Assembly: GCF_018143015.1 (NCBI RefSeq)
Contig: NC_054741.1
Span: forward strand, 57,055,048-57,119,047
Length of the DNA stretch: 64,000 nt
Source: Lytechinus variegatus
Lineage: Eukaryota; Echinodermata; Echinoidea; Temnopleuroida; Toxopneustidae
Direction of reading: 5' to 3'
Of the stretch, positions 5,491 to 64,000 are shown piece by piece. The notes under the pieces were generated by a model. It had not been told where the DNA came from. It worked only from the letters and a program-made list of their open reading frames with translations, and searched no databases. A program made the translations under genes and the position numbers. Numbering within the stretch: position 1 is the first letter of the stretch; each line of letters starts with the position of its first letter.

Positions 5491-5573
5491 ATCAGTCTTT
5501 GAAATCGAGTACAAATACAGGCTAATGACTTGTTAAGAATGTGAACTTTCAAAGGTAAGTGATAACACAAAGA

Positions 5574-7065
5574 CATGAAGATAACAAGTCTATATCAAGT
5601 AACTGGTTGCATGCAAGCAGTATGTTTGACACATTTTCTTCTATCATGCGTAAGAAATTCCAAGAGCATAATAAGACAGGCACGTTGAATAACGGCTTGA
5701 ATTAAGTATAAAGCCATGCCTTGAAGCACTGAATACAGATTCATGAAAGTTATCCTTTTTTTATGTAAATAGTAGTAGAATGTACAATGTATAGAGCAGG
5801 GTTAAAAAGAAACAGTCAATGTTTTTATGGGCAGCTACTATATACCCAGATCCAGAATTTTTATGCATAACCATAACATGAAGATAACAAGTCTATATCA
5901 AGTAACTGGTTGCATGCAAGCAGTATGTTTGACACATTTTCTTCTATCATGCGTAAGAAATTCCAAGAGCATAATAAGACAGGCAGGTTGAATAACGGCT
6001 TGAATTAAGTATAAAGCCATACCTTGAAGCACTGAATACAGATTCATGAAAGTTATCCTTTTTTTATGTAAATAGTAGTAGAATGTACAATGTATAGAGC
6101 AGGGTTAAAAAGAAACAGTCAATGTTTTTATGGGCAGCTACTATATACCCAGATCCAGAATTTTTATGCATAACCATAACATGAAGATAACAAGTCTATA
6201 GCAAGTAACTGGTTGCATGCAAGCAGTATGTTTGACACATTTTCTTCTATCATGCATAAGAAATTCCAAGAGCATAATAAGACAGGCAGGTTGAATAACG
6301 GCTTGAATTAAGTATAAAGCCATACCTTGAAGCACTGAATACAGATTCATGAAAGTTATCCTTTTTTTATGTAAATAGTAGTAGAATGTACAATGTATAG
6401 AGCAGGGTTAAAAAGAAACAGTCAATGTTTTTATGGGCAGCTACTGTATACCCAGATCCAGAGTTTTTATGCATAACCATAACATGAAGATAACAAGTCT
6501 ATAGCAAGTAACTGGTTGCATGCAAACAGTATGTTTGACACATTTTCTTCTATCATGCATAAGAAATTCCAAGAGCATAATAAGACAGGCAGGTTGAATA
6601 ACGGCTTGAATTAAGTATAAAGCCATACCTTGAAGCACTGAATACAGATTCATGAAAGTTATCCTTTTTTTATGTAAATAGTAGTAGAATGTACAATGTA
6701 TAGAGCAGGGTTAAAAAGAAACAGTCAATGTTTTTATGGGCAGCTACTATATACCCAGATCCAGAGTTTTTATGCATAACCATAACATGAAGATAACAAG
6801 TCTATAGCAAGTAACTGGTTGCATGCAAGCAGTATGTTTGACACATTTTCTTCTATCATACGTAAGAAATTCCAAAAGCATAATAAGACAGGCAGGTTGA
6901 ATAACGGCTTGAATTAAGTATAAAGCCATGCCTTGAAGCACTGAAAACAGATTCATGAAAATTATCCTTTTTTATGCAAATAGTATATAGTAGAATGTAC
7001 AATGTATGCTTTTATGGGCAGCTACTATATACCCAGATCCAGAATTTTTATGCATAACCATCATA
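5574..7065. repeat. 303-bp tandem repeat, five copies
   Basis: The marker ATAACAAGTCTATA recurs at 5581, 5884, 6187, 6490 and 6793, an exact 303-bp period. Copies are nearly identical, with scattered substitutions such as ATGCGTAAG/ATGCATAAG, and the last copy has a short internal loss near 6980-7010. Each unit keeps an open frame of about 69 codons on the minus strand (starting MNLYSVLQG); that frame simply follows from the repeat and has no recognisable domain. Confidence 0.95.
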
Positions 7066-11322: not shown

Positions 11323-14300
11323 ACTACTACTACCACTACCACTACTACTACTACTACTACTTCTACTACTACTACCACTACCACTACTACCACTACCACT
11401 ACCACTACTACAACTACCACTACCACTATTTCTACTACTACTTCCACTACTATTACTACTACTATTAATAATAATAATGATAATAATGATAATAATAACA
11501 ACAAGTGGAATGCCTCTGGCTGTCTCACCTGCATCACGCGGTTCAATATAGCAGCAGTGCTGACTTTGCATACTACTCTAACTCGCACAAGATGTTCAGT
11601 GATACATGGTTACTCTTATGTCCTCTTTTTATGAACTAGACCAATAAACTTACAGAGATATGATGGTTATTCAACAAAAAACCCCAACATGGCCAAAGTT
11701 CATTGACCTTACATGACCTTTGACCTTGATCATGTGACCTGAAACTGGAACAGGATGTTCAGTGATACTTGATTACTCTTATGTACAAGTTTCATGAATC
11801 AGATCCATAAACTTTCAAAGTTATGATGGTAATTCAACAGATACACCCAATTCGGCTAAAGTTCATTGACCTTTGACCTTGGACATGTGACCTGAAACAC
11901 GCACAGGATGTTCAGTGATACTTGATTACTCTAATGTCCAAGTTTAACGAACTAGACCAATAAACTTTCAAAGTTATGATGGTAATTCAACAGATACCCC
12001 TGATTCGGCCAAAGTTCATTGACCCTAAATGACCTTTGACCTTAATCATGAGACCTGAAACTTGCACAAAATGTTCAGTGATGCTTGATTACTATTATGT
12101 CCAAGTTTCATGAATCAGATCCATAAACTTTCAAAGTTATGATGGGAATTCAACAGATATCCCCAATTCGGCCAAAGTTCATTGACCCTAAATGACCTTT
12201 GACCTTGATCATGTGACCTGAAACTTGCACAAAATGTTCAGTGATGCTTGATTACTATTATGTCCAAGTTTCATGAATCAGATCCATAAACTTTCAAAGT
12301 TATGATGGGAATTCAACAGATATCCCCAATTCGTCCAAAGTTCATTGACCCTAAATGACCTTTGACCTTGGTCATGTGACGTGAAACTCATGCAGGATGT
12401 TCAGTGATACTTGATTAACCTTATGTCCAAGTTTCATGAACTAGGTTCATATATTTTCTAAGTTATGATGACATTTCAAAAACTTAACCTCAGGTTAAGA
12501 TTTTGATGTTGATTCCTCCAACATGGTCTAAGTTCATTGACCCTAAATGACCTTTGACCTTGGTCATGTGACATGAAACTCTAATAGGATGTTCAGTAAT
12601 ACTTGATTAACCTTATGGCCAAGTTTTATTAACTAGGTCCATATACTTTCTAAGTTATGATGTCATTTCAAAAACTTAACCTTAGGTTAAGATTTGATGT
12701 TGACGCCGCCGCCGCCGCCGTCGGAAAAGCGGCGCCTATAGTCTCACTTTGCTTCGCAGGTGAGACAAAAATGATAATTACCATCTTATAATGTGGTATC
12801 ACCAGTTATATTGACCACCTGTCAATAAGACCAGATTTAGTTTCCCTTAAATGGAATCTCCATTAAAACATTTAATTTAGGAACCTTTCTACTCATTAAA
12901 GACCGCATATCAATTCTGCCCTCTTTGAATGTCTTTTTTGCAGTTAATCCTGTATATAAAGACAACACAACGGATTCAAGAAAAGTGGTCTTTATGAGGA
13001 CTTGGTCTTTATAAACTGGTTCCTGTCATAGATTTTTCATTTAAGAACTATTTTCAGGAGAGACCAAACTTGTACAGTTACATGTAGATGGTCTTTCTAT
13101 GAATCTATCAAGGTGGTTACTTGCAGGCTTGACTGTATACACGATTACTTTACACTCAGTCAGTAACGTTGAAACTCACCCTGAAGACATTGCTGACTCC
13201 CAGCACACAGCTCATAGTACGACTCACATAGCAGAGAACATATTTACTACATGTATCCTCAGGAAGGTAGCCTGCACCAAACTTAACTCGACCAACGCCT
13301 GTATCAGTTTCTCCGTTAGAATCAGCCCATACGTAGGTGATGTAATGCTTCTGTGCAGTGTTGAAACCAACCTGCATTAGGGGGAAAAGAAAGGAGTAAA
13401 TCAAAGTATTCAAAATGAATAAGGAAAACAGATTCAGAAACATATCGTGTTTCATAATATATATTCTTTCATGCATCTTCTATTCCTCCCCTTCTTTCTT
13501 ATCCATCTTCTCCTCCTTGTTCTATCTCCTATCTTCCCCTTTCACCTCTTCCTTCTCTTGTCCTCCTCTTCATCCATTTTACTTTTCCCCTTCTCTTATC
13601 ATCTTCCTCCTGCTTACGACCAATTCTGTATAAGCAATTATAAAATGCACAATTTTTTTGCATTTTTATATAATGTATTATATAGAAAAAAGATGAGAGC
13701 TACATGCTCTCCCCTCAATCAATTTGGTAAATTGAAAATGGCCATTCCTCGGCAAAGTCATGAGCTTACAATGGATTCAAAATACCTTGTCTCACTTTTC
13801 ATATAGTCAGCTAAGGACACTGGTTTCTAAAAACAGGTTGTGAATGATCTATTAGACATTGTTAGTATAAATTATTGAAACCAGACAACTCATTGTTCTT
13901 ATAGCAAAGTTAGCATACGTGTCATCAATAGGATTTAGTGTAATCACCTTATAAAGTCCAACCCAGTCCCAATTACTTGTTTTGGTGTCAGGAAGAACGG
14001 TATAGGAACACTCTGCCTCTTGCCCTCTACTCCACGATTCAATGGGAGTGAATGATACTAAAGGCTGCGCATCTTCTATTGTTATCTGAAGAAAAACAAC
14101 AGAAAAGGGAAGGATGGTTATGGACATACACATGTACACAACAAAAAAAGTAAGTCCCCCTAAATCAAATTGCTGTAACTTTTGAACAGAATAACTTTGA
14201 GATATGGTATTTCGAAATTGATTTTTACACTCATTAAGCAACTCCTTGGGGGAAAATGAGATCGATCGGTTGAGTCATGCATGAGTAATCAAAGATTTAT

Positions 14301-17300
14301 TTAAAAATGACCAAATTTTAAAGTCACAGGAGTCTTTTTTCAGATTGTGTAAATACAAAGTTGGGCAAAGGTTGTTTTCAGGTGAATTTATGGTGCTAAT
14401 GCTGTTATGCTATCCATCATTTAGCCACTCCACACAAAATTTTGATAACGTATATGTTCATGGTTGAGTGAGCACAATTTTTTGTGACGTATTTGGTCAT
14501 CATAATGGTTTATGCTAGTAACCTCCAAAACTTGTTAAAGCATTTTGAAATGGGAAAATGTTAATGGCTCCCCCCAATTACTCTAACCCTTCCCATTTTC
14601 AAATTCTGGATCCACAATTGATTTGTCCATAAATTCATCTGATCCTGAGAAATTGTTAGGAAAAGAATACATTTATGCAGTAACATAAAGAGAATTCATA
14701 TCCAAGTTTTCGAATGTGCTTGCTCAACCATAAAAATGTAAGAATTCAGAAAGTGTGTGGTGATAAAAATGATGGATGTTAAAAACAACAGCAATTAAGT
14801 CACATTTGAAATCGAATTTGCCCCCATTACTCACTTTATTACCCCTCAAAATGAGTCTGTGACATTGAAAATGCCCCTTTTCCCACTTTAATGCGTGCTC
14901 ACTCATCCATGAATAAACAAATCGATTTCGTATTTGCAAAGAATTCTGCCCATAGGTTGATAAACATTACTGCCAAATGACATTGCTAAAGACAGCCTTG
15001 AAAAAAAGTTCCACCTTATTGAATAAGGGATTACTTTTCTTAAACATGTGCACCCATATTGTATACAATGTCTATGAGAGAGGAAGTAACAATTTTAACA
15101 AAAGTGAAATGAGGGTTTGTTTCATGGCCGTTTTTTTTTTTACTTCTGCCCACAGTTAAAGAATTTGGAATTAATATTTGACATCTGGTATCCACTCACA
15201 ATAATGTTATTATTTTTTATTAAAAAATAGACAAATGGGCACTGTACTTTACAATACAGTATTAAGAAGCAACAAAGATTATATCCTGAAATTTTCAGCA
15301 CATTAAATGCTTGAAAAGCCTTTTATACAATATTAATAAGACACAAAAAATACAGGTATTCTATTTGGATTGGGCACCTGATCAAAATAAATGTTGATGT
15401 CAAGTCGGTAAATTAACCAATTAAAACAATTTCATCTTTATTTCTATGCAACATAACTGTTTTACGGCTCACACATTCATGTAATCTAGTAATGCACATA
15501 TTCATGTACTTTAGGGATTTATAAAACATCACTGTGACTAGATTATGTGCAAAGAATGTTTAATGTCTTAATGTTAGTAGGAATATTAGGTAAAACTATT
15601 AATGATAAAAATCAAGTTTTTTTCATTTCCCCTCTTGTTCCTTCCTACATGGACATGTAGGTCACTACAAAACCAGATAAAAGTTTGGTCAAATTATTCA
15701 TAAAAGTTTCCACGTATCTTGAGAACAAACTCCCTCCAATTGTCAGCAATGTTCATCATCAGGCTTGAGGTATTTTTAAAAAGCATTTGAAAATACAATT
15801 ATGAAATAAATCTTAATATGCCAAAGTCTTGAAAGGAAGTTGTACACTCCGTAAAAGTTGGTACAGAAATCTAGTTACAGATAATCATTATTACAAGTTG
15901 GCAGTAATCCAAGTCAACACAATGCCATTGTTAAATGGCAGCAGTGACCTGAAGCAGTATGGTAGAAGGAAGTAAGAAGCCTAAATAAATTGCTACTGAC
16001 CAATCACAAGAGGGAGACATTTGGCTATTATGAATATCAGAGCAAACACCCCAGGAGTGTTTGTTACTTTGATTCAATGAACATTATTCTATGCCAAATA
16101 CATGTATAACACCCAAATTCAAATCAAACCATTAGCTTTTTATCTCTCCCATGATTTAATCCTTAGCTTCACATTATTATTATTATTATCATTATTATCA
16201 TTATTACTATTATTATCATAATTATCATTAGTAGTAGTATTATCATTATTATCATTATTACAAACTTTATCACAGACCTCACTCTAACTTAATAATATCT
16301 TCAGAGGAATTATGCCAGGGGCAAAACCGGGTCAGCATTTGAGTTCACACAGCACCGCTCCATGATGCTCACAATATCTCTCTTGACATTATTGTGAAAG
16401 GAATTTGCCTATTTGCTTGTTTGCTCCAAAATACTTCATTTGAGTGGTTCTTATGCATGGCAAAACTATAAAACATTGGATTAGAAGCCACCTGTCTTTA
16501 AACCCTTAAAACAAATTTAAAGGGGGCATTCCTTTAAAAAGCTTTAGGTATTGCGCACCATTTGGAAAGAAGTTTATTAGAAAAATAGGATAAAGAGGAC
16601 TCAGGGTCCTGGCTCATTTCGTAATCCAGGGGCCGTATTCTGAAAATTGTCTTAGCAGAAATATTCTTGTATCTTTGGAGTTACAATAAAACCTATATAC
16701 TGAAAACTCTTGTATCTTTTCTTCTAAATTTTCTTGTAACTTTCACGGAGCGCTTATGACGTCAGAGTTACAATGATGCGTAAAGTTTAAAATAGCGCAT
16801 ATATCTCTGTGCGCAAGATAACATATCGAGATAAAAGGTATTCTGAAAATTCTCTTATCTTTGCGTTCTCTTGCAACTTCCTTGCAAAATTTACAAGAGG
16901 TAGGGGGCTATTGAATGCGATATTTCTCGGTCAACAATAATATTTTCTTGCTGCATCCTGCAAGAACATCATGTTTTACAAAAGGAGACATCCAGAGATA
17001 TCATAACAATGGATTGGTAGACTTTTCAGTAAATGAAAATTATTATCGAAATGATTTTAATCTCTTCAGAGAAAATATGACTCTGAGAAAAGCCACATGC
17101 ATTTTAGCGCAGTAGCGTACAAACATAAGCGTCACTGGCGCAAAGGAAATTACGCCGCATGTCAACAATGCACTTGATTATTTTTTAGAAGGGACGTTTC
17201 TATTGGTTGACCGAAACATAAAAAATTTAATGATTTGTTGATGATAAAATATTAGGCGTGTCAGAGATAAAATGGGACGTCCTTCATACAGAGATACAAC

Positions 17301-20300
17301 AATTTTTCAGAATATCAATTTAAGAGAATTTTAGCGAGCTGTTATCTTGCTCAGTTACAAGAAAAGTTAAGACAATTTTCAGAATACCACCCCAGGATGT
17401 TTACAATGTGAAATAAGTCATAAATCAAACCGTGAATGAGGCATGACACATAGATGCTCTCTATTATAATGTCTATCGAGAAATTACTGGTAATTGGTGA
17501 TGTCTGTAAATGAGTGCAGCATTGATATTTTGATAGGGGGCAAGATCACCTAAAGGGAAGTAATTTTTTCTTTAAATTTAAAAAACGGAGACCTTTTCTT
17601 TTTAAACTCTTCTTCATTTTTTTTCCTTTTTCTCTTTTCACCTTTATTTTCCATTGTCTCATTACTTGCAAAATCATGGGAATGGATGCCACCCCCCTCC
17701 CACTTTGTTGCGCCGCCGCTGGTTACCAACAAACAAATCAGACCGATGTATTACAAGCACGTACCTTGGCAAGAAACTCCGCACTGACAGGTCGATGGTC
17801 ACTCCAGAGTATATCCGAATGGGAAGTGTAGGAGGTTTGTGTTATACTCAGGTAATTCTGATCTATGCTGGCACGTAGGTTGACCTTCCATAAGATCCTA
17901 TCCGTCCAGGCGGGTGATCTTTGCTTGGGACTGAGGCAAAAAAAAGGGACATAGAATTATTAGTGAGATATTATGATGATATTCATAAATACATACATAC
18001 CTTTTTGGTGTGTGTCGATATGGGAACTTATTTCTTTTTACCGCAAAAATATAGGGACATTTGTGTGTGTTAATGTTACACTGTAAATTTATTTTCAACA
18101 ACTTCTTCCACTGACCAGGCTCATTTTCAGACAAAATAAACACAAAAAGTGAACACTGTCCACCAATTAGGGATGCAGCCTACAATGGGGATTTTCTTTG
18201 GCCTAAAGTGGACAATTCCCAAAATAGGCATTATATACATGACTATACAAAACTGGTTTAAATTGTTAAGAGGAATATTGATTGGCATGGTCTTCTGGAC
18301 CAGGGTCCAGTCCTCAGTTGTCTGGCATCCCCATTTAGTGAATTAAAAAAAAACAGTGTTGTCCCTAATTGCAGGTCGAAACAAGTCCTCCAATACATAT
18401 TTTTTCATGATACCTTTCAATTCTGCTGAAAGAAGATAGTGATATATTGGAATTGTATAACCATGACACCAACTCAACTTGCATGTAGATCACTACATTG
18501 GCATTATAATTGATAGAAATCTGAAGAAGAAAAAAAAACCTTCTCTAGTGTGACAAATCACAAGGCTGGACTGGAGGTCTACTCGTTTACCTCAACTCAT
18601 TGTTGGTGGGCCAATAAACTAAAATTTTCTCGACAATGCAAAAATCTGAGCTTTAGAATTATGGCAATGGTAGCATATTTTCTGAAAACAGTCTTATAAT
18701 GTAAACAAGTGGATTGCCTCTGGCCGTCTCACCTGCATCACGCGGTTCAATATAGCAGCAGTGCTGACTTTGAAAACTACTCTAAATCGCACAAGATGTT
18801 CAGTGATACATGGTTACTCTTATGTCCACTTTTCATGAACTAGACCAATAAACTTACAGAGATATGATGGTTATTCAACAAAAAAAACCAACATGGCCAA
18901 AGTTCATTGACCTTACATGACCTTTGACCTTGATCATGTGACTTGAAACTCACACAGGATGTTCAGTGATACTTGATTACTCTTATGTCCAAGATTCATG
19001 AATCAGATCCATAAACTTTCAAAGTTATGATGGTAATTCAACAGATACACCCAATTCGGCCAAAGTTCATTGACCTTTGACCTTGGTCATGTGACCTGAA
19101 ATGTGCACAGGATGTTCAGTGATACTTGATTACTCGAATGTCCAAGTTTAACGAACTAGACCAATAAACTTTCAAAGTTATGATGGTAATTCAACAGATA
19201 CCCCCAATTCGGCCAAAGTTCATTGACCCTAAATGACCTTTGACCTTGGTCATGTGACATAAAACTCACGCAGGATATTCAGTGATAATTGATTAACCTT
19301 ATGTCCAAGTTTCATGAACTAGGTCCATATATTTTCTAAGTTATGATGACATTTCAAAAACTTATCCTCAGGTTAAGATTTCGATGTTGATTCCTCCAAC
19401 ATGGTCTAAGTTCATTGACCCTAAATGACCTTTGACCTTGGTCATGTGACATGAAACTCTAATAGGATGTTCAGTAATACTTGATTAACCTTATGGCCAA
19501 GTTTCATGAACTAGGTCCATATACTTTCTAAGTTATGATGTCATTTCAAAAACTTAACCTCAGGTTAAGATTTGATGTTGACGCCGCCGCCGTCTGAAAA
19601 GCGGCGCCTATAGTCTCACTCTGCTATGCAGGTGAGACAAAAACTTCTTTCTGGACAAAAAGGGGTTGCCACAATAGGCCAATACTCAAAAATTAAGTTT
19701 TTCTGATTTGTCTTCTATCATTTGAGACACAAGGTTTTTAGAGCCAACAGTTGTTGACTGAATGAATGTATTTATTTCAATCTTCTAAATGCAATGGCAA
19801 ATGACTCATCTTCCCCTTGATTTAGAATTACCATAATAGAAATCTTCGTTCAACTGGCTTGAAAGTATTAAATTTTACCTCAACTTATTATTTCAATGTT
19901 GTGATAACAATGTCAAATGATTAATATCCCCCTGCCCCTTGACTTAGATTTAACCAGAATCCAATTCTTCATTTACCCGGTTAAGAAATTAATGCTGTAC
20001 ATACCTAGTATCATACTCATTTGACTTCAGATCAAATTTATATGTGGGCATGAATGTGATAAGCCCTTCATGGAATCCACTGAAAGCTTTCTTTTTCCTC
20101 ATGCTGTTCAGGAGCTGATCTTTCTCCAGTAGGACGTGAAGTTTCTTCGGAGCTGCCAGGAATTTAATCGCCTCGGTTGAGAGGTCTTCTATCCGGTAGT
20201 TCAGATCACCAAACCACAAAACATAGCTATAAACAGTGTTGAAACAAATACACAAAATATATCAATCTTCATTAAAAATCTCAAGGAAAAAAGGGAGAAT

Positions 20301-56300: not shown

Positions 56301-59300
56301 TTTGGAATAGGATCAGATATATTGCTGACAAACAAACATTGAATTGAACACAGGTTCCATATGAAGAAAACTTAGCAAAACATTAAGCACTGCTAACACT
56401 ATACGATTCATTGCGATCCATACTTCAAAGAAATTGTGATAACATTTGATACGGACATTCTAACTGATAAAATCTTACAGATCAGTGTTGGGAATAGTGG
56501 TAGGACTATTGAAATCGAAATTCAGTCAATTTCGAGCCTCCCTGTATGAACAAAAATCAATTCAATTCCAAATTGTAATGACATCATCATTGGCTGCGAC
56601 TTGAAGCCGATTCAGACTTTACTCAGACCACAGGGCTAGCCGCAAAATAAAGATATGATTTTAGTATTTCTGACATCATGTCAAACTTTGAATAAAGTAA
56701 TTTCACTTCTTGGAACTTTCATATTTAATGCAAAGTGTGATTTCTTGAAAAATTGTATTGTATCAGATGGCAGTGTGAGACGGGCTTTAATCACACATAT
56801 ATTTGGTTGGGATTTACTGCGTGCAACTTTTAGGAGTTTGCAAACAAGATGGGGGGGGGGGGGGTAGGACTCAGTGACTGAGAGACATACGCTTCCTTGG
56901 AGTGATTTTAGGGGTTTGACATTCTTACTAGCCTAATTTCAAACTCTTCTCGCTGGTGTACTAATATAAGGCCGAGATCAACCATGAATATTCATGAGCC
57001 CACTCAATCACACCAATAAACATTCTAAAATAGAGGTTTGGTTTGTATAATACTTCATCGTAGCAGGATTCATCTAACCTTAACATAAACATATCCATCC
57101 TAATCCACTCCCTACAATAGTTGAATGCCTTCAACAAAGAGTATTACCTGTCTAAGTGTTCTTGAACTTTCCACGGATTCAGAGTATTTAGTTTGAAGGC
57201 CCTGCAGCTGCTGTTCATAGTTGGTACACATGTCACATGGCCTTCCTAACTTCTCCCGAGCAAACCGAATCTGACAGGACAAGTACATACGGTAAACCAA
57301 ACATTTATTTATTTCATTTCATTTTATTTAATGGTTTTTACAACATTTTCCATAACAAAATGTATATAGTATCCAAAAATATTAAGGAAAACCCCCTCTC
57401 AAAAACATCATCTTTTCAGTGCAGCTCTTCAACAAACTATTTTCTGGATCTCAAACAATAATTCAAGAAGAGGAGACATGAGAGGAAACTTTATTTACAT
57501 GAAGAATCCATTCCCAAAGATGCTGCATACAAAGTTACACTTATTAACCCTGTCCATGTGTAATTTGCACCAATGCACACTCGGTGCTGCTTGAACTTTA
57601 CATTTCATGCTCACACAAGCAATGCATTGTTTCCCTCCCTGAAAATAATTCATTACACAGGGGGTTCATGGCCCAGCACACAAAGAGTTAATCAGCAAAT
57701 CTGTGAAATGGTGTACCCAGGCATACTCACTTCTACGAGATACGGTAACTGCGAGGGATGACATGGATCCATAAATACCATACACATATTTGAAATATTT
57801 GAAGAGTTGACATTATGCATTATCTGATATTGTATCTTTTTTCTGAAAAACTTCAAGATAAATTACACAATAAATCAGCAAATTGATATTCATGAAGAGT
57901 TCTTTCATTCTAGATACTGATATTTCTATATTACACTGAAGGATAGTTAAAATTGTAAACAAAACAACCATAGCACAAGCTACAGTTTATACACTGACTG
58001 AGCTATTTTGACAGCTAAAAAGAAAGAAAGAAAAAGTATATGCAGTGCGTCCCAGAAAAAACGAAACCGAGATTTAGCGATCGTTTATCATAACTTAATC
58101 ATAAATAGAATAGACAAATGACCTACCAATTTAAAGCTTAGAATCTCCTCTTTCATCTGATATTACTTAGGTTATTTCTTATTCACGCATGAGTGAGCAA
58201 AAACAATTTGAAGAAAGGATACCAAAAACTCATTTGGACGGGGGGTATCTGGATTTCAAAAAGAAAACCACATCTCTGAAAAGTTCAATATCTGTATTTC
58301 CATAATTTCACGAGATAAACGTGTTTTCACCGGTTTCCCACAGAAGCTATCGCGTGGTGAACAAAAGATTTAATGCATGACTGATCATCAACAAAACGGA
58401 GTGTCGAGTGAGTTTGAAAGCCAGCCTGGAGAACCTCTTCATTTTATGAAATTATTGAAATTCAAGCCTTATTTTAAATGACCAGAACTTTGTTATTTCT
58501 TGACCATTTTCTGTAATTTAGGTATCAAATTAAAGAGCAGATATTGAACTTTTCAAAACCCAGATACCCCCCCCCCCCAATGAGTTTTGATATCCTTTCT
58601 TCAAATTGTCCTTGCTCACTCATGCGTGAATGAGAAATAATCCAAGTAATATCAGATGAAAGAGGATATTCTGAGCTTTAAATTGGTAGGTCATTTGTCT
58701 ATTTTATTTATGATTAAGTAATGATAAAAAATCGCTAAATCTTGGTTTTGTTTTTTGTGGGACGCGCTGTATATTGCATATGTATCGTGAAAAATCCTAA
58801 CAGGGACCGAATTAGCTCCTGCCTATCACCCAGTCTTTTTAAGGGTTAAAAAACATATTACTGAGGCCTGACAATTACAACCCCCTATTTGTATCCCATT
58901 GTGAAGATTGTTGAAACTACTCTAACCTATGCTCTCACCACTAGACTACACAGGTTTATTGCCATTTCGTCCACTGTCATTTTGTCCACTACCCACATGG
59001 TCTAATATTTCGTCTACCATCAGTTGGTCCACTATCCACACGGTCCAATTACCATTTCGTCCAATCACCATTTCGTCTAATAGCCATTTCGTCTAATAGC
59101 CATTTCGTCTATTATCATTTGGTCTAATAGCCATTTGGTCTAATGGTATTTTTTTGCCAATTGGTCCAATAGCCACTTTGTCCACTATCATTACGTCTAT
59201 TCCCATTTGGTCTAATAGCCAAATGGTCTAAAGGCAAATGGTCTAATAACCACTTGGTCTACTTTCATTTCGTCCATGTTCCATTTGGTCTATCAAACTG

Positions 59301-62300
59301 CATTTGGTCTACTATCACTTGGTCTAAACTCATTTCGGCTAACAATCATTTGGTCTAATTGCCATTTGGTCTAATAACCAATATGTCCAATTGCCATTTT
59401 GGCTAATCACCATTTCGTCTAATACGCATACTGGTCTACTATGCTGCACTAGCGCCCTCTACGACCCGAGTCGACTCTATTCGCGATTGTGGGCCTAATT
59501 AATTACCAATTCTCTTCAACTTCTTGATTTATTTTATCACTGTTGACTAGTGTTGTTCGTCATTGATTACTTTGCATTATGGAAGTGTTTTCCACCCCAA
59601 AGGGGAAGCAATGTGTGTCTTATCGAGGTTATACATACACGATACGGGCGAGGAAAAACGGAATGGTATACTGGCGATGTCGCCAGCGGACAACGTGCTC
59701 TGGCACGTTGGTAACCCCATTAGCAAAAGCTAGATCCGCAAAAGGGATGTGATATAATTATACCCGGCAGGCCTATATACTCGCGACCAAAAATCTACTC
59801 TAGTGATTTCAATACCCCCCCCCTTCCTGTAAACTCCTGGATCCGCGCCTACGTAGTAGTAATTATTTTAATTATGTATATTATTTCTATTATGATTATC
59901 CTTATTATTATCATTTTTGTTAATATTAGTAATATGATCATCATAATTATTATTATTGGTAGTATTATTGTGAATTTTATTATTATTATTATTATTATTT
60001 ATTAGTATCATTATGATGATTATCATTCTTATTATTATATCCATTAATTGCTACAGCATGAGTATATCACAAACATTATACTCATCGTTATTGTCAATAC
60101 TACTAGGCCTACATTTATTTTAGGCGCAGGCGGGCTTCTAGCGACGGGAAACGAACAAAAAGGGAGAGGATAGTACAGGGAAAGAAGATAGGACAGATCG
60201 GGAAGAGCTCTTTTTTTGGGGGGTGGGGGTATATTGATCAATAATATTTCTTTAAAAGGCTATATTGTCTTTCATCTGTTTATCGTATTTTGATATCGGA
60301 ATACAATATTCTCCTTTCTTTTTTTTTAATAAAAATTGAGCGACAAATTAAAATAAAAGGACCCTTTTCCATTTTCCCCATCTTAGTTCCCCTTTTATAT
60401 GTGTGTGTGTGCGTGTGTGTGTGCGTTTTAGGGGGGTGGGGGTGCCTGAATTGCTGTACCCACTGAATCGACCCTTGCGATAGTAGTTATCATCATAGTT
60501 TTTAGGGTTTTTTTAAACTAATATCATCAATAATTTCAAGGTATTAAAGTCATTTCGCTCCCCTCCTCGGATAACGCAAATTATTTGTATTAGACGAAAT
60601 GGCTATTGGACCGAATGGCTATTAGACTAAATGGCTATTGGACGATTTGGGAATTGGACGAAATGGTTAGTAGACGATTTGGTTGGTAGACGAACTGATT
60701 ATTGGACCTAATGGTTGATGGACGGAATGACTATTAGACGAAATGGCAATTGGACGAGTCGATAAGTAGACGATGTGGATATTGGACCAACTGAAATTAG
60801 CCGACATGGCTATTGGACCAAATGAACGGTGGACGAACTGGTTAATGGACGATTTGGCATTAGACCAAATGGATTTAGACGAAATGGTTGGTAGACGAAA
60901 TGGTTGTAGACGAATTGGCTATAGACTAACTGGCTATTAGACTAAATGGCTATTAGACGAAATGGTGATTGGACGAAATGGGTGGTAGACGAAATGTTGA
61001 TGGACGAAATGGCATTAGACGAAATGAATGTAGACCATGTGGTGAGTGGACGGGATGGCAGTAGACGAATTGGCAATTTACCGACTACACATACCACACG
61101 GGTCTTGTGATCTAGTGGTAAGAGCATTGGACACATGATCGCAAAGTTGTGAGTTCAAATCCCCCCTCTGCCACTGCCTCCACTTCGATAAAAAGGCCCA
61201 TTAGTAATTTCCGTTGTCTATAGGGTCAGCCACTATGTCTGATCAACTTTGATGTAAAATTTGTCCTATGTAATTGATTATAGATCAGTTTGGCGTTATA
61301 CCAGCACAAACAAAAGAAAAACCTGTCCTACCAAGTTCCTATGGGAGTTACCATAACAGAAACAGGATTGCTGAAGACACTAACCTCTTCCTGTATTTTT
61401 GTCCATTCAGTATCACTGACGACTCTCTTGCCTGCCAGCAGGGAGTAGAGATCAGTCTTAGAGCGAGCACTGGCCAAAACACTCTTCATCTCCTCTGATT
61501 CAGGAGTTCCTAAAAGTAAAAAAAACATCATAAACAATTACGATGCAGGAAATCTTTTAATGTAGTATCTCTTCCATTTGCTATTTCTTACAAATGCTAC
61601 ACAATTATATTTTTAGCAGGATTTTACATAGGAATTATTGAAATTTGGGGAAACATTTTTCCTCAATGAAAATTGCAGATTCAATTTGAGAATTTAAGTT
61701 ATTCCCTGAGCAAAGAATGATGATGGTGATGATGATCTTTGGGACAATGGTGGTGTGAAGATGACCACAATCAGGAGGAAGATTATGATGATGATCATAG
61801 TGGTGATCCTGATCAGAGGATTTCCTCGCCCACGTTCATTCGCTCACAGAATTGCGGGCGGAATCCTGATTTTACAAGTCCTTCCAAGAAAAATAAATAT
61901 CCACTTTGAGTTCTATACCTGAGATAGCTCTTTCTTGTGCCTCTGTTAAACTGATAGTGGATGATAGCGAAACAGAATCGTAACTGGTGCCCAAGAGATC
62001 AGACGTATTGTGTCCGCTCTGAGCTCCAATCTCTGATAAGCTGCCATGAACTGTTGACTTGGCTCCTGAAGCCGAGTCTGTAGTGTCAAATTGTAACAGC
62101 GCTTCTGGGTCGACATTGGGGCTGACAAAGTTGATAGATGGATGGAGTCTTGAAGGTGTGGAGCTGATAGGCATGTCCATGGAGGAGGGGACCAGGAGAG
62201 CATCGTCGCTGTCCTCGATGTCGTCTCTACTCAGAAGGGAAGATGAGTTGGTTTGTACAGGTGCAGGCGATGCTTGTTGAGTAACTTCTTGCTGCATGGA

Positions 62301-63178
62301 TTAAGAACACATAGTAATATTACAGCATAACTATTAAATCCCCCTACCAGATATAACTATCAAATACATATCTCTGACTTACTATACATGAGACCTTCCT
62401 GAAATCATTCATCTCTTTTTCTAGTTCTCATGGCAATTTTAATATTCTTTTTAAATGATCTTCACTTTGGAAATTAATAGAGCAAAGCAAGCATGGGGGT
62501 TGGACATACAAAGATGATTATTTCATAGGATATGAGTAACATAAAATTACAAATAGTTGTCCCAATTGAGGGTAGGGATTTGTCTGTTGGATGGTCAGCA
62601 CTGAAATTAGATCTACCATTTAAGTATGAATAACTAGTTTTGCAATGGATAATAATGCTCCATTGACATGTAGCAGAACCCCCCGAATTGTCAGAAGGGG
62701 CAACAGTAATTTGTTCCCAACTTTGTTGACTTAATACACTTTCTCTTTAAATTCCTATTGCATTTTTACAGCTGAGAACATACAGGACTTCCCATTACAT
62801 TAATTCAATGAATATTATGTCTTATCACAACCCATTATCTTTACAATTCAGCCATACCCCCAGCCATAGACTGAATCTCAATGAACAAAAGGCAATGCCC
62901 TTTGTTCCTTACCTCTGCCGTCTCCTTGGAATGTCTTTTCTCCAGGTTCTCTCGCTTCTCCTTCAGGACTTTGACCTTCTTCTCCTGCTCCTCACGCTCC
63001 TGGTCCTTCTTCAGGAGCTCGGCGATCTGTCTCTGCTGTTCTTCCGTCAGGACGCTCTCCATCCTCCTCATGTCCATCATCTGCAACCTCTGAGATTCTA
63101 GGAACTGATCGTTGGCCATCTGCCAGGTTTGCTGGAGCTGAGAGTGAGCTTGTTTCTCTTGCTCTAGAATACAGCACA
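47163..63178 (-). CDS. RABEP1: Rabaptin (RABEP1/2-like) Rab5 effector with C-terminal FYVE finger, 13 exons, 5' part not in window
   Basis: Rabaptin is a coiled-coil homodimer that binds Rab5-GTP, and Rabex-5, on early endosomes. Thirteen exons join in a single frame (about 658 residues; human rabaptin-5 is 862). Matches in order: LEQEKQAHSQL..NDQFLESQRL; LTEAQERAISG; RVVSDTEWTKIQEE; GRPCDMCTNYEQQLQGLQ; KYRDDIITVRVNADHTE; and SEAVQKDFVKLSQSLQVQLE, the Rab5-binding C-terminus. Human rabaptin-5 ends ~30 residues later. Here the frame runs on into a FYVE-type finger with four CxxC pairs and a basic KKKKNHCKHCG. An uncharacterised FYVE class in bilaterian Rab effector proteins is known to me from domain databases, so the fusion looks ancestral and human-lost. 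RABEP1 versus RABEP2 is not resolved. Upstream exons lie beyond 64000 or were not found. Confidence 0.92.
47784..47838. repeat. Hairpin with a 22-bp perfect palindrome
   Basis: GTGTGACACAATTGTGTCAC is palindromic, and outer arms GCGTTCTGT / ACAGAACGC extend it. It lies in the last rabaptin intron. Role unknown. Confidence 0.75.
48270..48866. mobile_element. Long-arm inverted-repeat MITE, family B, copy 2
   Basis: Similar to 23143-23725: inner TTTCATCAAAATCAGATGTA, TTTTACATCCGATTTTTC and TGATGACATCATCCACTCAC are shared, and the right end is GTGAACTTGACCTTTAA. It lies in a rabaptin intron, about 40 bases from the FYVE exon. Confidence 0.75.
48908..49021 (-). CDS. RABEP1: Rabaptin exon, junction of Rab5-binding coil and FYVE finger
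   Basis: 38 codons: VQLEVIRQKDNEVRWQHEDD then ADKCNNCKTVFGTSKKKK. The first residues equal VQLERIRQ of human rabaptin. WQHED followed by CNNC is the start of a FYVE finger. Because one exon encodes both, the fusion is not an artefact of joining two genes. Donor GTTTGA. Confidence 0.93.
49022..49828 (-). other. Rabaptin intron with a weak internal repeat
   Basis: The phrase TTTTACGAA/TTTTACAAA-CTGGCTCAAAC recurs around 49215, 49400, 49525 and 49585 with uneven spacing, which suggests an old tandem or palindromic element. Nothing coding. Confidence 0.4.
49829..49945 (-). CDS. RABEP1: Rabaptin exon, Rab5-binding region
   Basis: 39 codons: TNLEAELQERRKKNQNLQSE then LENSEAVQKDFVKLSQSLQ. It matches SEQVQRDFVKLSQTLQ, the C-terminal Rab5-binding segment of human rabaptin-5. 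Confidence 0.94.
50558..50708. mobile_element. Small hairpin MITE
   Basis: TTCTACGGCGACTGTACGGC and GCCGTACAGCTGACGTAGAA are inverted arms about 85 bp apart, flanked by TTGG..CATTTG / CCAATATG. About 151 bp, non-coding, intronic. Confidence 0.75.
50904..51254. mobile_element. Inverted-repeat MITE interrupted by a LINE tail
   Basis: AGGGTCCCATAACACAAAG and CTTTGTGTCACGGGCCCCT are the inverted ends, with GATTGATCG / CGATCATTG inside. The middle (50958-51168) is foreign. AATGATT at 50951-50957 and 51169-51175 marks the split. Confidence 0.75.
50958..51168 (+). mobile_element. 5'-truncated LINE 3' tail, nested
   Basis: About 211 bp ending TTGGAAATAAAATCTGAA with TCTGAA repeats, the tail style of CR1/L2-like LINEs. 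A 7-bp direct repeat AATGATT borders it inside the hairpin MITE. No coding part remains. Confidence 0.7.
51567..51733 (-). CDS. RABEP1: Rabaptin coiled-coil exon
   Basis: Begins by completing a leucine, then VLRNLREDYEKEKKSRGE, TLREVQESKKSMQGKSKEV and ITALREQVEELSAHK. Heptad-rich, phase-consistent, donor GTATTA. Confidence 0.9.
51890..52260 (+). other. Possible Penelope-like terminal-repeat fossil
   Basis: A GC-richer stretch with a TATATAAGG box at about 52109 and CCGAGGACAAG..CTTGAAACGTCGAG at about 52147-52180. CTCGAC upstream can pair with GTCGAG. The pattern resembles the hammerhead-bearing terminal repeats of Penelope-like retroelements. It is broken and has no enzyme frame. Family assignment is tentative. 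Confidence 0.35.
52464..52626. mobile_element. Small hairpin MITE, copy 3 of a three-copy family
   Basis: Left end CAGGAGAGTGTTTCATCAAC, right end CTTTCATGAAACGCTCCCCTG. Inner GTTGTCAGATC and CGGATAAACTGG match the copy at 8681-8847 in inverted orientation. Intronic in rabaptin. Confidence 0.75.
53023..53212 (-). CDS. RABEP1: Rabaptin exon
   Basis: 63 codons plus one base: ELSRLCMKYRDDIITVRVNA, DHTESSLRSELSFTREQLES, TYQTELDDYKEEL. Aligns with LVLKYREDIINVRTAADHVEE in human. Donor GTGAGT. Confidence 0.94.
53612..53713 (-). CDS. RABEP1: Rabaptin exon
   Basis: 34 codons, VTKLQKENDSLSAKRSLHQS then LQSSEPFDLPTSPQ. It matches VRLQKDNDSLQGKHSLHVSLQ of human rabaptin-5. Acceptor TCTTCAG, donor GTTCGT. 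Confidence 0.92.
54250..54288 (-). CDS. RABEP1: Rabaptin micro-exon
   Basis: 13 codons, QILFESREQLYQE, between a CACTGCAG acceptor and a GTAAGT donor, phase 0. Small, but both splice sites are strong and the frame is kept. Confidence 0.8.
54509..54607 (-). CDS. RABEP1: Rabaptin coiled-coil exon
   Basis: 33 codons, IKTLTTKNGESEQLLSNIRH then QYLKSQNELHSQM. Phase 0, acceptor CTTTCAG, donor GTAAGT. Same length as the neighbouring exon. Confidence 0.87.
54660..54960. repeat. ATC/TCA-type triplet microsatellite
   Basis: Imperfect TCA/ATC/CTC triplets fill a rabaptin intron and generate an acidic, methionine-rich frame on the minus strand that is not a gene. Confidence 0.7.
55519..55875. mobile_element. 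Diverged element with GTCTCGCC ends
   Basis: TTGTGTCTCGCCCACTTGTG and CTTCTGGTTGGCGAGACAAA are loosely inverted. The interior has ATGACCTTTGACCTTACCATG, recalling the units at 11.7 and 18.9 kb. A probable distant relative of those elements with a single unit. Confidence 0.6.
55922..56020 (-). CDS. RABEP1: Rabaptin coiled-coil exon
   Basis: 33 codons, QLEQEIDNVLREQKIRSELE then ESLKNAAEDAQIQ. Heptad-like leucines and phase 0 borders. Acceptor TTTTCAG, donor GTGAAT. Confidence 0.88.
56021..57147 (-). other. Rabaptin intron, nothing recognised
   Basis: AT-rich intron with a G run at 56851-56864. No exon or clear transposon ends. Confidence 0.4.
57148..57270 (-). CDS. RABEP1: Rabaptin exon with CDMC motif
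   Basis: 41 codons: IRFAREKLGRPCDMCTNYEQ, QLQGLQTKYSESVESS, TLRQ. RPCDMCTNYEQQLQGLQ is almost identical to RRCDMCSNYEKQLQGIQ in human rabaptin-5. Phase 0 at both ends. About 4.1 kb of transposon-filled intron separates it from the upstream exon. Confidence 0.94.
58037..58774. mobile_element. Long-arm inverted-repeat transposon, 728 bp, with TATAT duplication
   Basis: GCAGTGCGTCCCAGAAAAAA and GTTTTTTGTGGGACGCGCTG are inverted ends of arms that extend about 200 bp (AATTTAAAGCTTAGAATCTC; AGATGAAAGAGGATATTCTG; CTCACTCATGCGTGAATGAG). TATAT stands directly outside both ends. The centre has no transposase frame. It lies in a rabaptin intron. Confidence 0.85.
58860..58943 (-). mobile_element. Possible second tRNA-like SINE head
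   Basis: On the minus strand GTCTAGTGGTGAGAGCATAGG resembles the SINE A-box region and GGTTGTAATTGTC is a weak B box. The foldback element inserted at the edge of this sequence. Confidence 0.35.
59579..59752 (+). CDS. FLYWCH-like zinc finger reading frame inside the foldback element
   Basis: 57 residues: MEVFSTPKGKQCVSYRGYTY, TIRARKNGMVYWRCRQRTTC, SGTLVTPLAK and on to TGA. The pattern (F..TPKGK, Y.GY.Y, YWRC, C.GTLVT) fits the first three quarters of a FLYWCH finger, including both cysteines. The terminal H.H pair is absent before the stop; it could lie in a following exon or be lost. FLYWCH fingers accompany Mutator-like transposases, which agrees with the 9-bp duplication. Intact start and stop, but expression is unknown. 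Confidence 0.65.
   Translation: MEVFSTPKGKQCVSYRGYTYTIRARKNGMVYWRCRQRTTCSGTLVTPLAKARSAKGM
59870..60050. repeat. ATT-rich triplet microsatellite
   Basis: Imperfect ATT/ATC triplets in the centre of the foldback element. Confidence 0.7.
61092..61270 (+). mobile_element. tRNA-derived SINE
   Basis: TGATCTAGTGGTAAGAGC is an A-box-like and GAGTTCAAATCCC a B-box-like RNA polymerase III element about 40 bases apart. The clover-leaf does not close cleanly and there is a non-tRNA body after it, so a SINE rather than a tRNA gene. It abuts the foldback element. Confidence 0.6.
61385..61509 (-). CDS. RABEP1: Rabaptin exon
   Basis: TPESEEMKSVLASARSKTD then SLLAGKRVVSDTEWTKIQEE. SDTEWTKIQEE matches SETEWNLLQKE in human rabaptin-5. 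The incoming split glycine codon fits the previous exon. Confidence 0.92.
61919..62291 (-). CDS. RABEP1: Rabaptin exon, serine-rich linker
   Basis: 124 codons plus one base. QEVTQQASPAPVQTNSSS starts an unstructured serine/acidic linker that ends in SLTEAQERAIS, matching the MLTKDQERAIK of human rabaptin. The linker between coiled coils is where human rabaptin binds GGA/gamma-adaptin ears; an acidic DSDDALLVP lies there, but I cannot assign it as that motif. Confidence 0.9.
62292..62912 (-). other. Rabaptin intron, nothing recognised
   Basis: AT-rich, no exon or repeat boundary. Confidence 0.4.
62913..63178 (-). CDS. RABEP1: Rabaptin exon (most upstream one found)
   Basis: 88 codons after a split valine: CCILEQEKQAHSQLQQTW, NDQFLESQRLQMMDMRRM, then a highly charged coiled coil to RHSKETAE. 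Acceptor CTTCAACAG, donor GTAAGG. Four decayed copies of its first ~100 bases lie just upstream in the intron. Confidence 0.93.
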
Positions 63179-63790
63179 CTGTTGAAGAAACACATTAAAC
63201 ATGGTCACAATCTTCACATTATCTGCAGTATCCGAGATTCTAGGAACTGATCGTTGGCCATCTGCCAGGTTTGCTGGAGCTGAGAGTGAGCTTGCTTCTC
63301 TTCGTCTAGAATACAGCACACTGTTGAGGAAACACATTAAACATGGTCACAATCTTTACATTATCTGCAGTATCTGAGATTCTAGGAAGTGATTGTTGGC
63401 CATCTGCCAGGTTTGCTACAAGCTGAGAGTGAGCTTGCTTCTCTTGCTCTAGAATACAGCACACTGTTGAGAAAATCATGTGCAACATGGTCACAATCTT
63501 CATATTATCTGCACAGTATCTGAGAATCTAGGATCTCATTGTTGGCCATCTGCCAGGTTAGCTTCAAGCTGAGAGTGAGCTTGCTTCTCTTGCTCTAGAA
63601 TACAGCACACTGTTGAGAAAATCATGTGCAACATGGTCACAATCTTAATATTATCTGCACAGTATTTGAGATTCAAGGATCTGATTGTTGGCCATCTGCC
63701 AGGTTTACTACAAGCTGAGTGTGATTTTGCTTCTCTTGCTCTAGAATACAGCACACTGTTGAAAAATCACATCACACATGGTTACAATCG
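63179..63790 (-). repeat. Four decayed tandem copies of the 5' part of a rabaptin exon
   Basis: The exon edge marker ACAGCACACTGTTGA recurs at 63171 (true exon), 63313, 63456, 63602 and 63748: spacings 142, 143, 146 and 146. Each unit is about 100 bases of exon start (the codons for CCILEQEKQAHSQL..NDQFLES) plus about 40 bases of intron with its CAACAG acceptor. The nearest copy is almost identical to the exon but reaches a stop after LESRILQIM. The three outer copies have shifted frame after HSQL (reading VANLADGQQ). Confidence 0.9.
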
Positions 63791-64000
63791 TCACATTACC
63801 TGCAGTAACTGAGATTCCACGAACAACATTCATAAAGTGCTTGACACAATGTTTCAAAGCTCTGCATACTATCACCCTGGCTTTAGCACGGCTACCATGA
63901 TTAAAAGCTTGAGCCATGGCTACCTTGATCAGGTGCTCAACATTCAAGGAATTCCTTACTACAAGATAATCATTTACTACATCTGGGTGGAGAGTGGCAA
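63791..64000. other. Unassigned, possibly a dispersed repeat
   Basis: Contains a less AT-rich stretch with CACCCTGGCTTTAGCACGG and ends in GGGTGGAGAGTGGCAA. A minus-strand frame runs through it but resembles no part of rabaptin. Confidence 0.3.

Follow-up and report, generated by a model that had tools for sequence, protein, structure and literature searches.

A foldback element of the sea urchin Lytechinus variegatus as a probable deletion derivative of a FLYWCH-type Mutator-like transposon

The window analysed here, a 64,000-nucleotide stretch of the sea urchin Lytechinus variegatus (C2:57055048-57119047 of the 870-Mb assembly), carries a foldback element of 2,130 bp whose borders, at positions 58953 and 61082, were read directly from the window sequence. 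The element is flanked by two perfect copies of the 9-bp direct repeat GACTACACA (58944-58952 on the left, 61083-61091 on the right), and its ends are long arms built of short tandem units in inverted orientation. The left arm (58953-59440, forward strand) begins with the terminus GGTTTATTGCCATTTCGTC and consists of units of approximately GCCATTTCGTCTAATA; scoring of these units revealed 28 cores within 486 bp, mostly 15-16 bp apart (21 successive spacings). The right arm (60588-61082, reverse strand) likewise holds 27 inverted cores within 501 bp, 23 successive spacings being of 15-16 bp, and its terminus, written as the reverse complement, is GGTAAATTGCCAATTCGTC. The same words that make up the arm unit are present in the termini, and the outermost 52 bp at both ends are 81% complementary. 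When each arm was shuffled 1,000 times with its dinucleotides preserved, the maximum reached was 6 cores for the left and 8 for the right arm, with at most one spacing of 15-16 bp, and every one of the 24 best-scoring 500-bp stretches listed for the window overlaps the two arms. Long inverted ends composed of short tandem units, the feature that defines the foldback class, are present here far beyond anything seen in the shuffled sequences. Both this structure and the perfect 9-bp repeats outside its ends had been proposed in a first-pass annotation made from the letters alone, and both are borne out; the span that it had drawn, 58944-61091, marks a real feature and takes in the two direct repeats along with the element proper.

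Between the arms lies a truncated FLYWCH frame of 57 aa (59579-59752, forward strand), which matches the Pfam family PF04500 with an E-value of 7.1e-10 and 39.4 bits (cut-off 23.6) and is collinear with exon 1 of a transposase gene in a full-length relative on contig C10, described below. A FLYWCH frame in the centre had also been part of the first-pass picture, and the domain is indeed there; the frame, however, stops short of the domain's C-terminal His-x-His, which we take to be part of the FLYWCH zinc finger, because an internal deletion junction at 59715-59717, 3 bp common to positions 787-789 and 15330-15332 of the C10 copy, cuts it after TLVT. The frame is a leftover of transposase exon 1, unable to supply transposase by itself. 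The right interior of the element (59715-60587, forward strand), including an ATT-rich tract, corresponds to the 3' part of the 16.7-kb C10 copy.

That the element arrived by insertion can be seen at an element-free duplicated locus on the same contig (L143, C2:59826172), which aligns with the two flanks put together in the absence of the element and contains a single GACTACACA. The alignment comprises 1,187 bp at 96% identity, reaching 183 bp to the left and 1,000 bp to the right of the site, and a further stretch of 89 bp matches on the left. Since only one copy of the repeat exists at this locus, the 9 bp were created by the insertion, and the window element was thus inserted with a 9-bp target duplication. 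The right flank is repetitive, as 37 of the 40 scored matches to the joined flanks are copies of their right half at 84-89% identity. Two stretches that look tRNA-like by eye flank the insertion site in inverted orientation (58860-58952 and 61092-61190). The right one is a repeat with 84-89% copies and is short of 28 bp at L143; ARAGORN found no tRNA in the window.

The full-length relative, the one such copy that was read, occupies C10:6483123-6499810. It measures 16,688 bp, bears both arms with their termini and is bordered by the 9-bp duplication AGTTGAAAC. Its exon 1 encodes a FLYWCH domain (PF04500, E-value 9.6e-11), the N-terminal domain expected of Phantom- and Muta-type Mutator-like elements (MULEs). 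Exons 2-5, separated by GT-AG introns, join in one frame into 350 aa that match the MULE family PF10551 with an E-value of 7.9e-17 over profile positions 2-98 of 99, and that display the catalytic pattern D-66-D-120-E with a C/H stretch 21 residues past the second D. A DDE transposase of the kind that marks the MULE superfamily is therefore found between the ends of this copy; the connection between arms and MULE came from reading the frames downstream of the FLYWCH exon, and exon 1 and exons 2-5 probably form one gene. The first-pass annotation had placed the element in the Mutator superfamily and had called for a search for full-length relatives carrying the same arms, a FLYWCH domain and a MULE transposase; the C10 copy is just such a relative, and the assignment has held up.

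The window copy can be laid onto the C10 copy in two blocks. Its bases 1-765 match C10-copy positions 1-789 at 94.5%, and its bases 763-2130, which comprise the right interior and the right arm, match positions 15330-16688 at 97.2%, with 3 bp common to both blocks at the junction (element positions 763-765, corresponding to 1637-1639 of locus L009, which is the window copy). The window element is best read as a non-autonomous, internal-deletion derivative of a FLYWCH-type MULE foldback transposon, and we would put the probability of this reading at roughly 0.93.

The same parts recur across the genome. The 40 matches to the left arm that were scored of 3,854 first-look candidates, window included, are all 96-100% identical over 472-488 of 488 bp, and the 40 best to the right arm, scored of 3,857 candidates and again including the window, are all 99-100% identical across the full 495 bp; for the right interior, 40 matches were scored of 713 candidates, window included. 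Eleven other right arms score 884 bits against 893 for the window arm itself, which would amount to about one mismatch, and 1 mismatch and 1 gap across 1,971 bp are all that separates the copies L006 and L007. This near-identity argues for recent movement, and the family seems to have been recently active. The FLYWCH frame has 121 genome matches, a few of them overlapping and most without an internal stop. At all 20 loci that represent the best 20 of these 121 matches (L009-L028), the frame stands approximately 590-650 bp inside the same left end, the alignment of L028 starting at base 7 and five of the loci coming from one tandem array on contig C6. For the copies examined, this excludes the possibility, raised in the first pass, that the frame is a stray insertion in a single copy. 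In the array itself (C6:34606979-34620062; L016, L023, L024, L025 and L028), most FLYWCH matches follow one another at intervals of about 2.87 kb; L016 and L023-L025 each have an element inserted at the same internal place (C10-copy position 15984) of a sibling copy, so that the array looks like a nested insertion that was later amplified.

Comparison of 34 loci with the C10 copy, four of them being the window copy and L011 being C10 itself, with L004, L013 and L070 aligned in one part only, yielded 17 different deletion junctions, counted with the window copy included and with junctions no more than 5 bp apart merged. Sixteen of the 17 left breakpoints fall at C10-copy positions 719-945 and the remaining one (L072) at 530, and the right breakpoints are spread across 12952-16056; the former are clustered within some 230 bp around the FLYWCH exon, the latter scattered over 3 kb. 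What might be the significance of a FLYWCH exon so often retained? KP products repress or titrate the transposase of P elements, and by analogy the retained frames could be functional, their truncated proteins binding the arm units and repressing or titrating the transposase of this family. Such a role would suit the finding that most derivatives break inside or just past the FLYWCH exon (719-945 in 16/17 junctions), and that most of the 121 matches are free of internal stops. Against it, several of the junctions fall within the domain (719, 732, 748, 751 and 775), the window frame is devoid of the C-terminal His-x-His, L072 breaks before the frame (530), and the match of L004 ends at 536, its right part not having been found. 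Repression by the truncated frames is accordingly considered unlikely.

The length of the target duplication was determined in 35 copies read at both ends, namely 31 flank pairs, the window copy, L010, L021 and C10. Thirty-two flank pairs had been assembled, and C14:13235 was left out because its left end was not found in the fetched stretch; C13:30598, of which the right flank alone had been fetched, was also left out of the count. These copies come mostly from the 40 best right-arm matches, with L010 and L021 coming from the best FLYWCH matches, and young copies are over-represented among them. The first-pass expectation of a 9-bp rule fails, given that 25 of the 35 copies have an exact 8-bp duplication and five (the window copy, C10 and three others) an exact 9-bp one. 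Two of the 8-bp copies, both on contig C1, have common flanks, which leaves 24 distinct 8-bp sites with a weak base bias (0.73 bits at the sixth base, at most 0.59 elsewhere). Nor do the 8-bp copies speak against a Mutator origin, as had been supposed, because Muta1 of Aedes aegypti, an active FLYWCH foldback MULE classed as a 'type2 Foldback TE', transposes in yeast with duplications of both 8 and 9 bp (21/60 and 39/60, respectively, in one assay), according to passages of its description (PMC5225508). The range given for MULEs in a passage of another paper is 8-11 bp (PMC6446971), within which this family falls, and 8 versus 9 bp does not discriminate among foldback MULEs.

The predominance of 8 bp (25/35) could nevertheless be taken to mean that the arms derive from another superfamily with 8-bp duplications, of the P, hAT or Merlin type, and that the MULE exons of C10 were captured by chance; moreover, foldback arms are not confined to a single superfamily, an example being Galileo of the P superfamily, mentioned in a passage of PMC4079207. 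This scenario is very improbable in view of the exon 1 sequence found at the same place in 20/20 loci, which implies that the gene belongs to the family beyond C10, of the mixture of 8 and 9 bp, which is as in the Muta1 passages (PMC5225508), and of the fact that no other transposase was seen between the C10 arms, either among frames of at least 90 aa or in a profile scan of the transposase exons and two frames of a long interspersed nuclear element (LINE). A Merlin, hAT or P origin, weighed once the 8-bp duplications had appeared, was rejected in view of the FLYWCH and MULE exons that C10 carries between the same ends; in this one full-length copy read, no THAP/P, BED/hAT or IS1016-like transposase was seen. 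Foldback elements of the P superfamily have a THAP domain and a P-type transposase, and the single full-length copy has FLYWCH and MULE instead. The THAP domain is named in a passage of PMC4079207. That the direct repeats are a chance feature of repeated surroundings and the arms an inverted satellite array without any transposon, a view for which the repeat in the right flank speaks, can be dismissed as scarcely credible, because in 30 of the 35 copies an exact duplication of 8 or 9 bp borders the same two termini and the element-free duplicated locus has one GACTACACA.

Several observations nonetheless weigh against the reading of the window element as a derivative of a FLYWCH-type MULE. At the border between exons 1 and 2 of C10, reading revealed no GT-AG sites that would keep one frame; either damage to the copy at this point or a small exon overlooked in the gene model may account for this. 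The DDE exon and the last exon of C10 have a single genome occurrence at high identity, the next matches being at 37%. A genome scan with the Pfam MULE profile returned 31 matches, none of which lies at C10 and none, on visual comparison with the 121 FLYWCH matches, near one of these. The link between arms and MULE therefore rests on the spliced exons, and introns splitting the domain are the likely reason why the scan missed C10. The C10 copy furthermore holds a LINE (endonuclease, E-value 4.8e-10; reverse transcriptase, E-value 4.4e-39) and two nested foldback units. It is 94.5-97.2% identical to the window copy, whereas certain derivatives hardly differ from one another; given this divergence of 3-5%, set against near-identical derivatives, C10 is more aptly regarded as a full-length relative standing in for the parent than as the direct donor. 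It is unlikely to be the direct source and may be an inactive copy, and the real source may be absent from the assembly. Finally, five of the 35 copies are without an exact 8- or 9-bp duplication: three have near matches (9 bp with 1 mismatch at C8:25378; 8 bp with 2 mismatches at C14:12650 and at C19:1630, the latter in a C-rich tract), and at C1:39190 and C12:4524 (2/35) no duplication was seen.

As to the placement of these insertions, the LINE lies at L073:589-3734, downstream of the transposase exons and inside the 16.7-kb copy. One nested foldback unit, with right-type ends on both sides, is situated between exons 3 and 4 (L059:3072-3512), and the other, with one right-type and one variant end, between exons 4 and 5 (L059:4364-4782); no clear 8- or 9-bp duplication was visible by eye around either of the two.

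Under the reading of the window element as a MULE derivative, a FLYWCH-MULE transposase would most likely bind the repeated arm units via its FLYWCH finger, excise the element by a cut-and-paste reaction and join it to target DNA with an 8- or 9-bp stagger. Gaps left by excision and only partly repaired would then have given rise to many internal deletions that keep both arms, and the resulting derivatives would be moved in trans by an intact, recently active source of transposase.

Foldback MULEs with a FLYWCH domain are already known in the form of Muta1 and Tm1, and the present sea urchin family is a further one of this kind. As described in passages of PMC5225508, Muta1 resembles the C10 family in its anatomy, having a FLYWCH domain and a DDE MULE transposase encoded with introns, long inverted ends made of a terminal motif followed by tandem units (12 bp with 3-4-bp spacers in Muta1, hence a period of 15-16 bp) and duplications of 8 or 9 bp, and, together with its relatives, it has more than 300 non-autonomous derivatives. 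By contrast, Muta1 is 3.2 kb long and has ends of 145 bp, each with 9 units; the present family has ends of about 490 bp carrying 27-28 cores, and its one full-length copy extends over 16.7 kb with a nested LINE. The catalytic residues of Muta1 given there (D214, D283 and E419) are spaced by 69 and 136, compared with 66 and 120 in C10. Of the Aedes families treated in the same passages, 13/14 have FLYWCH, and subterminal tandem repeats of 9-15 bp occur in 10 of the 12 with long ends (PMC5225508). Tm1 of root-knot nematodes, in which foldback ends are joined with a Phantom-type transposase, shares with the present family its composite foldback-like ends (with redundant units of about 14 bp in Tm1) and the presence of one lone copy that encodes a transposase with FLYWCH and MULE domains, beside many non-autonomous copies; its duplications are of 8-10 bp and mostly 9, as opposed to mostly 8 here, and Tm1 is described as senescent and no longer active, in contrast to the near-identity of some copies in this genome (PMC3169594). 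Tetris of Drosophila virilis is a further foldback element with tandem repeats inside its ends and duplications of 8-10 bp. It has been linked to satellite formation from its units of about 220 bp, while here whole copies form the array at C6:34606979-34620062; unlike the present family, no transposase was found for Tetris according to the same passages (PMC4079207).

Elsewhere in the window, longer tandem arrays occur at 5573-7007 (303-bp units), at 11580-12703 and 18790-19581 (163/192-bp units) and at 63075-63824 (146-bp units); no frame of at least 120 aa overlaps the first or the last of them. In the assembly, the family of Bindin, a sea urchin sperm gene according to the abstract of PMC4866015, was found with an E-value of 4.0e-66 (PF02084), in keeping with a sea urchin host; the family turned up in 0/14 control genomes, though that control is weak should these genomes be prokaryotic. 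Both Bindin parts are present at C13:18601949-18603482 and at C13:24947663-24949214, 6.3 Mb apart on the same contig.

What does this family mean for the foldback elements of sea urchins at large? The TU elements, known from Strongylocentrotus purpuratus and described since 1983, have long inverted repeats whose outer domain is made of tandem units of about 15 bp, and make 8-bp duplications. The 8-bp duplications in 25/35 copies and the 15-16-bp spacing reported here agree with these features, the window copy itself having 9 bp, and from such features a link between TU elements and the C10-type family is plausible. In the titles and passages of the openly licensed literature searched, no transposase is named for sea urchin foldback elements. 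The chances seem to us about even that the TU elements of sea urchins are deletion derivatives of a FLYWCH-MULE of this family, with a transposase as at C10, and that the thousands of first-look arm candidates arose recently, by mobilisation in trans, from a very rare parent that contains introns. With C10, foldback arms, FLYWCH and MULE come together in one full-length copy from a sea urchin, and the TU question thereby becomes one of sequence comparison. The family also provides numerous junctions of insertions and deletions that can be studied, and what moves the long-puzzling foldback elements of sea urchins can now be tested by way of the Mutator-type transposase of C10.

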